From positions 868,001 through 932,000 of the forward strand of contig NZ_MWPH01000002.1 of NCBI RefSeq assembly GCF_002177135.1: 64,000 bases of DNA. The letters are read 5' to 3'. The notes beneath the pieces were generated by a model. That model made no database searches, was not told the origin of the DNA, and saw only the letters and a program-made list of their open reading frames with translations. Positions 21,310 through 32,385 of the stretch are shown here, piece by piece. Source of the stretch: Natronolimnobius baerhuensis. Its GTDB lineage: Archaea; Halobacteriota; Halobacteria; Halobacteriales; Natrialbaceae. Both the position numbers and the translations under genes were made by a program. Position 1 is the stretch's first letter. Each line of letters opens with the position of its first letter.

Positions 21310-21723
21310 TTACGCTGGCTCGTCGCGGAACCGTACGATGTCGGCGTCTACCTCGTCGAAATCGTCGTCGGCACCGACGAGAAGTGTCCCACCTACAGCG
21401 TCAGCTGTTGCAAGCGCATATGCATCGCCGAGTGCCATCGTGTACGCTTCTTTGAGGGCAGCTGCACTGTCCCAACACGCTCGCGGATCGGAGACTGTGA
21501 CACCCAACTCTTCGAGACGCTCGAGGCTTGCTCGGACAGCCCCAGGACGGAATCCAACGCGAGAACCGACGTAGAGGACCTCCGTTTTCGTCACCGGACT
21601 GACGTATCCCTCGACCTCGCCGGACGCAACACGGTCGATCCACGCTTCGACAGTATCACTGCCTGGTTCGTCGTCCAAGTAGGCGATGAGCGGCTCCGTA
21701 TCGAAGACAATCGTCTCAGTCAT
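21310..21723 (-). CDS. vapC: VapC-family PIN-domain ribonuclease toxin
   Basis: 137 residues. PIN-domain acidic residues are visible: VFDTEPLIAYLDDEPG (first Asp), KTEVLYVGSRVG (Glu), LGDAYALATADAVG (Asp), and LLVGADDDFDEVD (the last acidic pair). VapC enzymes usually cleave tRNA or rRNA. The start overlaps the AbrB-type antitoxin gene by 4 bases, the classic coupled order of antitoxin then toxin. The two genes read against the lysine genes and lie between dapD and lysA. Confidence 0.9.
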   Translation of the reverse strand: MTETIVFDTEPLIAYLDDEPGSDTVEAWIDRVASGEVEGYVSPVTKTEVLYVGSRVGFRPGAVRASLERLEELGVTVSDPRACWDSAAALKEAYTMALGDAYALATADAVGGTLLVGADDDFDEVDADIVRFRDEPA

Positions 21724-22025: not shown

Positions 22026-22053
22026 AAGTAATACTTCTATTCCGAATTACTTA
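22025..22053 (-). promoter_or_regulatory. vapBC operator/promoter inverted repeat
   Basis: Perfect 8-base arms TAAGTAAT (22025-22032) and ATTACTTA (22046-22053) are separated by 13 bases. The distal arm lies about 21-28 bases before the vapB start codon and overlaps the likely TATA element, while the proximal arm touches the start codon. A VapBC complex bound here would block TBP and initiation together. The AT-rich block stands out from the GC-rich flanks. Confidence 0.6.
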
Positions 22054-22195
22054 ATTCTGTTTCTGGTTCGCTAACCGGGCGATGTCGACAAACTCGAGGA
22101 CACTGGTGACGACATCATCTCCACACACTCTGCGACGGCGGACACACAACGTCGAACCCAAACGCTTGAATCCTCGCGGTCACTTGAAGCGGGTA

Positions 22196-28335: not shown

Positions 28336-28512
28336 TGTGCGACCCTTTCCAGCGCGGTCCAAAAGCGTGTCGAAAGCCGGTTCCCGAAAGGGCCACGAGC
28401 GTGCACATCTCGAGCATCCTGTGGACTATTCTCGAGTGTGTAATACACGAACGTGAATACTTCGGGCCGAAAGACCGCAACGGCTTTCCCGTTCGCGGCT
28501 GGCCATGCTAGT

Positions 28513-30147
28513 ATGACGCGAATCGCCGGGATGGCCGGCAACCGAGGGCGTAATCTGTTGAACATCGCCGACCGACAACCGGGCGGAGCCGACCTCGCCG
28601 TCGTACTGACGAACAGTGAGGACGCGCCAGTACTCGAGGCCGCAGCCGACCGCGGGATTCCGACCGAAGTCGTCCCACAGGGCAACATGAGCCGCAGCGA
28701 GCACGAGGAAGCTGTGCTCGAGGCCCTGTCGGACTACGAGTTTGACCTGGTCTGTCTGGACGGCTACATGCGTATTCTCTCGGAGACGTTCCTCGACGAC
28801 GCGCCGACGACGCTGAACGTGCACCCCTCCTTGCTGCCCGCGTTCCCCGGCATGGACGCCTGGGGCGATGCACTCGAGGCGGATGTCTCGGTCACGGGCT
28901 GTACAGTCCACGTCGTGACGGACGCGACTGACGAGGATGGCGAGGTCCTCGAGAACGAAGTTGACGGCGGCCCAATCGTCACGCAGGAGCCGATTCCGGT
29001 CTACGAGGGCGACGACGCCGAGAGCCTGAAAGAGCGCGTCCTCTACGAGGGCGAGTTCCGCGCGTACCCGCGGGCGGTGAAGTGGTTCGCGGAGGGCGCA
29101 GTCGACGTGGATCTCGAGGCGGGCGAGGTCTCGGTCGATAGCGATGTCGCTACCGTGGGAGATGACGACCATGATGGGCTTCCGTCCCGTCGACTCGTCT
29201 CGAGCGACCGACTCGACACGCTCCGCTACGGGGAGAACCCGCATCAGGACGCGGCGGTCTACGCCGACTACACCTGTGACGAGGCGAGCGTTATCCACGC
29301 CGATCAGCTGAACGAGGGCGCGAAGGCACTCTCGTACAACAACTACAACGACGCCGACGGCGCGCTCAACCTCATCAAAGAGTTCGACGAGCCCGCGGCG
29401 GCAGTCATCAAACACACCAATCCCGCAGGCTGCGCGACAGCGGATTCGCTCGCCGAGGCCTACGAGAAGGCGCTCTCGACGGACCCGATGAGCGCCTTCG
29501 GCGGCATCGTCGCGCTCAACCGCGAGTGTGACGCCGCGACCGCCGAGCAGATCATCGACTCCTTCAAAGAGGTCGTCGTCGCCCCTGGCTACAGCGAGGA
29601 CGCCCTCGAGGTCCTCTTCGAGAAGGATAACCTGCGTGTACTCGACGTTGGTGAACTGGGCGAGCGCACCGAACGGTTCACCGAGAAGCCGCTGGTCGGC
29701 GGTCGACTCGTTCAGGAGCGCGACCTGCAGTCGATTTCGGTCGACGACCTCGAGGTCGTTACCGACCGCGAACCCACCGAGGAGGAACTCGAGTCGATGA
29801 CCTTCGCGTGGCAGACGCTCAAACACGTCAAATCGAACGGCATCCTCTTTGCAGACGGGACGGAGACGGTCGGCATCGGCATGGGACAGGTCTCTCGAGT
29901 CGACGCGGTCCGCCTCGCGGCGATGAAGGCCGACGAACACGCCGAGGGCAAGGACGCCGAGGGCGCAGTGATGGCTTCAGATGCCTTCTTCCCGTTCCCA
30001 GATGGTCTCGAGGAGGCCGCCGAGGCGGGCATCGAGGCGGTCGTCCAGCCCGGTGGCTCGGTCAACGACGACGACGTGATCGAAGCCGCGAACGAACACG
30101 ACATCGCGATGGCGTTTACGGGACAGCGGTCGTTCCGTCACGATTAG
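28513..30147 (+). CDS. purH: fusion: PurN-like GAR formyltransferase + AICAR formyltransferase (PurH C-domain)
   Basis: 544 residues. Residues 1 to about 200 are a glycinamide-ribonucleotide formyltransferase-type domain: RGRNLLNIADR, AVVLTNSEDAPVLEAAADRG, DLVCLDGYMRILSETFLDD, NVHPSLLPAFPGMDAWGDAL (the catalytic N-H-P-S-L), and CTVHVVTDATDEDGEVLENE (Asp). The rest is the AICAR transformylase half of PurH: LRYGENPHQDAAVYADY, LSYNNYNDADGALNLI, IKHTNPAGCATADSL, SDAFFPFPDGLEEAAEAG, and the C-terminal FTGQRSFRHD. The IMP-cyclohydrolase (MGS) domain that normally begins PurH is absent, so ring closure presumably relies on another enzyme such as PurO. I chose ATG 28513 over GTG 28453. A partial second copy of its 3' end lies downstream. 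Confidence 0.9.
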   Translation: MTRIAGMAGNRGRNLLNIADRQPGGADLAVVLTNSEDAPVLEAAADRGIPTEVVPQGNMSRSEHEEAVLEALSDYEFDLVCLDGYMRILSETFLDDAPTTLNVHPSLLPAFPGMDAWGDALEADVSVTGCTVHVVTDATDEDGEVLENEVDGGPIVTQEPIPVYEGDDAESLKERVLYEGEFRAYPRAVKWFAEGAVDVDLEAGEVSVDSDVATVGDDDHDGLPSRRLVSSDRLDTLRYGENPHQDAAVYADYTCDEASVIHADQLNEGAKALSYNNYNDADGALNLIKEFDEPAAAVIKHTNPAGCATADSLAEAYEKALSTDPMSAFGGIVALNRECDAATAEQIIDSFKEVVVAPGYSEDALEVLFEKDNLRVLDVGELGERTERFTEKPLVGGRLVQERDLQSISVDDLEVVTDREPTEEELESMTFAWQTLKHVKSNGILFADGTETVGIGMGQVSRVDAVRLAAMKADEHAEGKDAEGAVMASDAFFPFPDGLEEAAEAGIEAVVQPGGSVNDDDVIEAANEHDIAMAFTGQRSFRHD

Positions 30148-31206: not shown

Positions 31207-32283
31207 TCAGTCGTCGGCGGGAACGGCCGTCGTTGCTCGCGTATCGCCCATTGCGAGGACGTCATCAAAGAAGTCGAGGGTGTCCTCTGGGCCGGGGTTG
31301 GCTTCGGGGTGGTACTGGCGGGTGATGACGTCGTAGTCGACGCCGTCGATCCCTTCGGGCGTGTCGTCGTTGACGTTGATCTGGGTAATCTCGAGGTGTT
31401 CGCCGGGATCGGCGACGGTGTAGCCGTGGTTCTGCGTGGTCATGACGACCTTTCCGGACTCGAGGTCGAGCACTGGCTGGTTGACGCCGCGGTGGCCAAA
31501 GGTCATCTTCTCGGTGGTGCCGCCGAGGGCTTCGGCGACGATCTGCTGGCCGAGACAGATGCCGGCGACGGGCGTGTCCGCGACGAATTCCTCGACGAGG
31601 CTAATTGCCTGCTGGTAGTTCGTTGGGTCGCCGGGGCCGTTCGAGATAAAGAGAATGTCGGGAGAGACGGCCTCGACGTCGGCAACGCTTGCGTCGTACG
31701 GCAGGACGTGGACCTCGGCGTTGCGGGCGACCAGCGAGTCGACAATCGAGCCTTTCGCGCCACAGTCGACGAGGGCGACGGTTTCGCCGTCGTTGTCAGC
31801 GCCGTAGACTTCGGGTTCGTCGACGCTGACCTGTGCGCCGATGTCGGTGTGTTCGCTCATCCCCTTGCACTGCTCGAGTTGCTCGAGTGCGTCGTCTTCG
31901 GTGACGTCATCGCCGACGGCGATGCCGCATTTCATCGCCCCCTCGTCGCGGATGTCAGTGACGACTTCGCGGGTGTCGAGGTGGTCGACGGCTGGGACAC
32001 CTTCTGCCTCGAGCCACTCGGCGACGTCTTCGGTGAGTTCCTTTGCGAGGACAGCGCGTGGGTGGATGCGGTCGTCCTCGAATCGTTCTTCTCGGACGCC
32101 GTAGTTGCCGATCAACGGGTACGAGAAGGTCAGAATCTGCTCCTCGTAGGATGGGTCGGTGAGACTCTCTTCGTAGCCGGTATATGCTGTGGTGAAAACC
32201 AGTTCCCCGCGAGCGGTGCCCGGAGCACGTCCACGACCCTCGATGACGTGGCCGCCTTCCAGTGCAACGTACGCTTCTGTCAT
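31207..32283 (-). CDS. carA: carbamoyl-phosphate synthase, small (glutaminase) subunit
   Basis: 358 residues. An N-terminal CPSase-small domain (AYVALEGGHVIEGRG, YTGYEESLTDPSYEEQILTF, GNYGVREE) precedes the class I glutaminase domain with ISNGPGDPTN, the nucleophile Cys in GICLGQQIVAEALGG, and His/Glu in RQYHPEANPGPED. It supplies ammonia to CarB for carbamoyl phosphate used in arginine and pyrimidine synthesis. carB is not in the window. Two copies of the ATTACGAA operator lie at its start (see the Lrp entry), so it is a likely regulatory target. Confidence 0.95.
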   Translation of the reverse strand: MTEAYVALEGGHVIEGRGRAPGTARGELVFTTAYTGYEESLTDPSYEEQILTFSYPLIGNYGVREERFEDDRIHPRAVLAKELTEDVAEWLEAEGVPAVDHLDTREVVTDIRDEGAMKCGIAVGDDVTEDDALEQLEQCKGMSEHTDIGAQVSVDEPEVYGADNDGETVALVDCGAKGSIVDSLVARNAEVHVLPYDASVADVEAVSPDILFISNGPGDPTNYQQAISLVEEFVADTPVAGICLGQQIVAEALGGTTEKMTFGHRGVNQPVLDLESGKVVMTTQNHGYTVADPGEHLEITQINVNDDTPEGIDGVDYDVITRQYHPEANPGPEDTLDFFDDVLAMGDTRATTAVPADD

Positions 32284-32350
32284 TACGAACTACGTATTGA
32301 TCCCACCAACATAAGTGTTGTCTTCGAAGCTCAATTACGAAATTCGTAAT
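32282..32350. promoter_or_regulatory. paired Lrp-type operators in the carA/lrp divergent region
   Basis: ATTACGAAATTCGTAAT at 32334-32350 is a perfect 8-1-8 palindrome. A second site with the same half-site, ATTACGAAC followed by an imperfect arm (6 of 8 matches), lies at 32282-32298 and overlaps the carA start codon. The centres are about 52 bases apart, roughly five helical turns, the sort of phased arrangement Lrp/AsnC octamers use. One site sits over the carA start and the other just upstream of the lrp promoter. Confidence 0.7.
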
Positions 32351-32385
32351 CGGTAAGTGCCCGCTCTCCGTATCGTCGCATCTCC

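Follow-up and report, generated by a model that had tools for sequence, protein, structure and literature searches.

How are the two subunits of carbamoyl-phosphate synthase kept in step where their genes lie apart, and is the regulator gene that shares a promoter with carA responsible? Carbamoyl phosphate is a precursor of arginine as well as of pyrimidines; E. coli co-transcribes both subunits, whereas in haloarchaea the genes are split. The locus described here lies in a window of 64 kb (i.e., the whole stretch of DNA that was analyzed) from a haloarchaeal genome of 3.9 Mb, with Natrialbaceae as its nearest named relatives. A precedent comes from Halobacterium salinarum NRC-1: according to a 2014 report (PMC4177876), Trh3 (VNG1816G) regulates carA and carB as well as its own gene and is ChIP-bound at all three promoters. 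The same report describes two conserved sites in 18 species in the promoter that trh3 and carA share, and a carA-carB co-expression r of 0.69. Deletion of trh3 conferred no growth phenotype in H. salinarum, and the effector was predicted to be Arg, Gln, or Lys (PMC4236453).

Genes and promoter elements of the locus

The genes carA and lrp diverge from a shared promoter in an intergenic stretch of 102 bp (Table 1), and this layout is common to the 76 named haloarchaeal loci compared. The lrp product matched the NCBIfam LysM, LrpA, and AsnC models, in each case under the cut-off. It belongs to the Lrp/AsnC family by its AsnC_trans_reg (RAM) domain, for which PF01037 scored above cut-off (C2:900584-900784), and by a full-length alignment to a solved Lrp protein, P. 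furiosus LrpA (1i1g residues 2-139 aligned to lrp 1-134, E 3.8e-15), which covers an N-terminal HTH and a C-terminal domain. P. furiosus LrpA and P. horikoshii FL11 are sequence relatives of lrp with different targets. Synteny makes lrp the likely ortholog of the Trh3-type regulator of H. salinarum.

Table 1. Genes and regulatory elements of the carA-lrp locus (window coordinates).
Feature	Position	Strand	Details
carA, carbamoyl-phosphate synthase small subunit, 358 aa	31207..32283	-	TIGR01368, 359.9 bits (curated cut-off 307)
Site A, imperfect palindrome ATTACGAACTACGTATT	32282..32298	.	2 mismatches to the site B palindrome
carA TATA-like element CACTTATG	32310..32317	-	~30 bp upstream of carA ATG; from sequence
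Middle element M, half-site TTCGA; 13-mer TTCGAAGACAACA in carA direction	32316..32328	-	exactly 20 bp from site B
Site B, perfect palindrome ATTACGAAATTCGTAAT, 17 bases	32334..32350	.	8-base arms, 1-base centre
lrp TATA-like element GGTAAGTG	32352..32359	+	~30 bp upstream of lrp ATG, directly after site B; from sequence
lrp, Lrp/AsnC-type regulator, 137 aa	32386..32799	+	

The element CACTTATG is presumably the TATA box of a leaderless carA promoter, and the columns over it (32311-32319) carry 1.7-2.0 bits. The corresponding element on the other side, GGTAAGTG, would be the TATA box of lrp; its core at 32355-32358 is conserved. Just 5' of the lrp ATG, at 32370-32385, TA and ATCTC are conserved as well, perhaps as the initiator of a leaderless transcript. 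Elsewhere in the window, the frame at 28453-30147 (+) resembles, on inspection of its translation, a fusion of a PurN-like and a PurH-like domain.

Geometry of the operator elements

The sequence-only reading had placed a perfect 17-base palindrome upstream of lrp and a second site over the carA start codon, about 52 bases away. Both sites were found, as B and A, respectively, and their centre-to-centre distance is exactly 52 bp. The core 13-mer of site B, TACGANNNTCGTA, occupies 32336-32348, and the site itself lies 35 bp from the lrp ATG (32386), just upstream of the lrp TATA-like element. Site A overlaps the carA start codon (complement of 32281-32283) by two of its three bases. These two sites had been described as twin operators; the pair stands, but the count was incomplete because a third element, the half-site M, lies between them. 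Reading in the carA direction, the array thus begins with palindrome B at 0, followed by M at +20 and site A at +52.

A perfect palindrome is, by itself, weak evidence for an operator. Within shuffles of the 102-bp intergenic stretch, a perfect 8+1+8 palindrome occurred in 0.09%, and one with any spacer of 0-6 in 0.7%; at the scale of the window, however, two perfect 8+1+8 palindromes are present, and 14 with spacers of 0-6, and palindrome rarity was therefore dropped as an argument. The case for operators rests instead on conservation and recurrence. Matches to the 17-mer with at most three mismatches numbered three in the window (0.06 expected), and only 10 places in the 3.9-Mb genome carried one, among them sites A and B and the carB promoter. 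That the sites are chance palindromes in an AT-rich promoter, as the count of palindromes in the window would allow, is contradicted by this specificity, by the conservation documented below, and by the recurrence at carB; we regard that explanation as already refuted.

Conservation of the shared promoter

Spacing was tallied over 77 loci, of which 76 were named haloarchaeal ones and the other was the window itself. The distance from B to A was 52 bp in 67 of them, 51 in eight, and 50 in one; at the remaining locus (L062), the script had picked the wrong site A. The M element, T[AT]CGA, was found at +20 in 83/86 loci, and TTCG[AT]A preceded the 17-mer by 11 bases in 76/77. Over the 60 haloarchaeal loci that could be aligned ungapped, columns carried 1.7-1.9 bits each at the two sites and from the carA TATA up to B, compared with ~1.0 bit at third codon positions in the genes on either side and 0.7-0.9 for variable intergenic parts. 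Sites A and B and the stretch adjoining B are thus conserved like first and second codon positions in these 60 loci, whereas other intergenic DNA varies like third positions. Within both sites, the centres (32289-32290 and 32341-32342) vary and the arms are mostly constant, which is the pattern expected of a site for a dimer. The shared promoter contains two conserved sites with the same motif, as in the Trh3 circuit.

Specificity of the motif

Motif counts across genomes were obtained as pattern searches. The exact pattern TWCGAAWTTCGWA matched 69 times in 41 genomes (31 before lrp/carA, 27 before carB, and 11 elsewhere), and the reversed-pattern control matched nowhere in the same genomes. 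Occurrence of the motif at random genomic density had been named as a finding that would tell against an operator; its density is not random, and the strict motif marks only the carA/lrp and carB promoters. Enrichment at pathway genes had also been predicted. It was observed at carA/lrp and carB, but not beyond them: near matches with at most one mismatch occupied 16 places, and where those outside carA/lrp and carB were examined, none was at a recognisable gene for arginine, pyrimidines, or glutamine. The near matches examined lay in or beside frames such as those that resemble, by inspection of their translations, a ribonucleotide reductase, a UDP-sugar dehydrogenase, and an SMC protein, or beside an unrelated AsnC-like gene. 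As these adjoin or fall inside unrelated frames, a wider regulon was dropped.

Several further candidates were set aside. The looser motif TWCGANNNTCGWA had 41 matches genome-wide, mostly with GC-rich spacers; it is the AT-centred form that is specific. A two-mismatch copy of the 17-mer, at C1:425410, lies within a frame that resembles a membrane protein. A three-mismatch copy in the window, at 22039-22055, is probably unrelated; this short palindromic stretch is ~300 bp beyond the start of a gene (21310-21723, minus strand) whose product appears by inspection to be PIN-domain-like, and it may instead be a toxin-antitoxin operator. Extra exact matches to the motif were also seen ~80 bp past the 3' end of lrp in one genome (G001:C4:109618) and, in two others (G022:C1:1388687 and G020:C30:62608), ~1.2 kb to the carA side of lrp, near the expected 3' end of carA.

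The carB promoter

In this genome carB is unlinked, 214 kb from carA and lrp, and the same motif, a match to the 17-mer with at most three mismatches, lies directly upstream of it. The carB promoters of 37 genomes were aligned on the TATA region and scored against the 13-mer, yielding three leading peaks of similarity, with mean matches of 9.57, 9.03, and 8.46 of 10 positions, spaced 20 and 31 bp apart. The carB array therefore has elements at 0, +20, and +51 in the same order as on the carA side, and in both arrays the spacing corresponds to two plus three helical turns. The second carB site is a full site, whereas its carA counterpart, M, is only a half-site, and the two arrays differ in where the TATA box falls: between M and A at carA, but at the third site at carB, which abuts the TATA box and overlaps its downstream side. 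Because TATA is placed differently, the effect of the array need not be the same at the two genes. From this alignment, a shared carA/carB operator grammar is likely but not proven, because the comparison was made post hoc and the middle carA element is a half-site.

The carB promoter of one genome (G031, L131) has its 0/+20/+51 array elsewhere relative to TATA, as if it had been moved as a unit. In G000 (L181), a further exact TTCGAATTTCGAA is present at C2:685650-685662, 300 bp upstream of the carB array, and in the one same-genus genome searched (G001), a single motif match was found near carB.

The third element also bears on how the sites might act together. DNA-looping control had been proposed for two sites five turns apart with the DNA between them unbound, and a distance of 52 bp, kept in most loci, does equal five helical turns. 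There is, however, a conserved half-site at +20, which in the carB array is a full site; furthermore, a loop of 50 bp would be stiff, and wrapping of DNA is what has been described for archaeal Lrp complexes (PMC2995911). We consider looping quite improbable, since a span of 52 bp with an intermediate site is better accommodated by adjacent dimers or an octamer around which the DNA is wrapped.

Co-occurrence of the carB array with lrp

Where lrp reached 65% identity or more, which was so in 37 genomes, the three-site score at carB was 23-29 of a possible 30 in all but one (G038), where the array is kept only in part. Four genomes scored 15-18, which is background in view of shuffled-DNA maxima of 18-21; two of them had no lrp match, and two had the most divergent lrp (64% and 55%). 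This co-occurrence is supporting rather than final evidence, because the species are related, the identity cut was set after the scores were seen, and one of the two genomes with no lrp match is only 78% complete. In the genome with the 55% identical homologue (G034, L231), that lrp has its own upstream palindrome, TACGAAGTTCGTA, and carB is without the array, which suggests that autoregulation may persist without control of carB.

Co-occurrence is also relevant to the identity of the bound protein. Nine AsnC-domain matches are present in the genome, some of which could use the same motif, and Trh3 and Trh4 of H. salinarum are similar in both motifs and targets (PMC4236453); a Trh4-like paralogue might then be the main protein at the carA and carB sites. 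We think this unlikely, as it is lrp that retains the divergent synteny, the carB array is absent where lrp is absent or most divergent, and, in H. salinarum, ChIP places Trh3 itself at the trh3, carA, and carB promoters (PMC4177876).

Proposed regulation of carA, carB, and lrp

Very probably, carA and the gene of a Trh3-type Lrp/feast-famine regulator are transcribed divergently here from one promoter region that contains a three-element operator for the regulator. The sequence-only reading had assigned the sites to the adjacent Lrp as a link to carA and a means of autoregulation, and this assignment agrees with their conservation, their recurrence at carB, their co-occurrence with the regulator, and the H. 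salinarum ChIP data (PMC4177876).

From the observed sites, spacing, conservation, recurrence at carB, and co-occurrence with the regulator, a mode of action can be proposed. Dimers would bind palindromes of the form T(A/T)CGA-NNN-TCG(A/T)A, and the carA elements at 0 (B, the strong site), +20 (M, a half-site), and +52 (A) would lie on the same face of the DNA. Bound along that face at intervals of two and three turns, the regulator would most likely wrap 60-70 bp of DNA, either as adjacent dimers or as an octamer. Archaeal Lrp sites are typically two or three turns apart and Lrp oligomers wrap DNA, P. horikoshii FL11 doing so as an octamer (PMC2995911). Because carB has the same array, one regulator would coordinate both carbamoyl-phosphate synthase subunits, keeping them in step while controlling its own gene. 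On balance, we find it somewhat probable that carA and the unlinked carB share a grammar of three dimer sites at 0/+20/+51-52, that one wrapped Lrp assembly coordinates the subunits in trans, and that the array is a unit independent of TATA. Occupancy would probably be set by one of the pathway's amino acids (arginine, lysine, or glutamine).

Whether bound regulator would repress or activate is a separate matter. The carA TATA-like element is ~30 bp from the ATG, and transcription is thus expected to begin within site A, in or close to the start codon. Since site A is on the expected carA start point and the third carB site is at TATA, occupancy there should exclude RNA polymerase, as with P. 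furiosus LrpA, a repressor whose site flanks the TATA box on its downstream side (PMC2995911). Site B, at the border of the lrp TATA/BRE, should likewise limit lrp synthesis. Alternatively, the regulator might mainly activate carA and carB, with dimers on B and M, or on carB sites 1 and 2, recruiting TBP, and with an effector that inactivates it. This would be similar to Ptr2 and LysM, the latter an activator and the best NCBIfam relative of lrp, and carB sites 1 and 2 are indeed upstream of TATA and 20 bp apart; in archaea, Lrp-type activators act from a dimer site immediately upstream of BRE, with additional sites above that (PMC2995911). In addition, trh3 expression in H. salinarum is weakly positively correlated with that of carA and carB, which does not favour simple repression (PMC4177876). 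The normal growth of the H. salinarum trh3 deletion (PMC4236453) likewise counts against the proposed circuit. However, the third element is conserved on the expected carA start and abuts the carB TATA, where bound protein should obstruct polymerase, and TATA is not at the same place with respect to the upstream sites in the two arrays, yet an activating site is reported to be highly constrained (PMC2995911). Activation is therefore a tentative possibility, and we lean toward repression rather than activation from upstream sites.

Relationship to known systems

The locus is the Trh3 circuit in another genus, and because it is the same circuit as in H. salinarum, it is counted as already known. 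Both have an Lrp-type regulator sharing the carA promoter, two conserved sites there, a site at the separate carB promoter, and autoregulation (PMC4177876). They differ in that carA, carB, and trh3 are adjacent in H. salinarum. Two shared-promoter sites are given in the accessible part of that report (PMC4177876), whereas the present analysis describes a third element and a spacing of 0/+20/+51-52. The same source states that the measured specificity of FL3, from a different species, Thermoplasma volcanium, matches the conserved carA/trh3 sites (PMC4177876). Ptr2, LysM, and Ss-LrpB similarly have arrays of dimer sites two or three helical turns apart upstream of promoters (PMC2995911), but they are activators or dual regulators with other targets, and membership in that group is not claimed. 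Beyond that circuit, the analysis contributes the exact conserved spacing within a grammar likely shared by carB and carA, the motif counts in 41 genomes, an example in which carB is distant, and the co-occurrence of array and regulator.

Coordination of the two subunits would thus outlast the splitting of their genes, the same spaced array being kept before both even with carB hundreds of kilobases off. With three positions and two spacings, the array is a sharply defined operator on which the mechanism of archaeal Lrp proteins, including activation versus repression, may be addressed.
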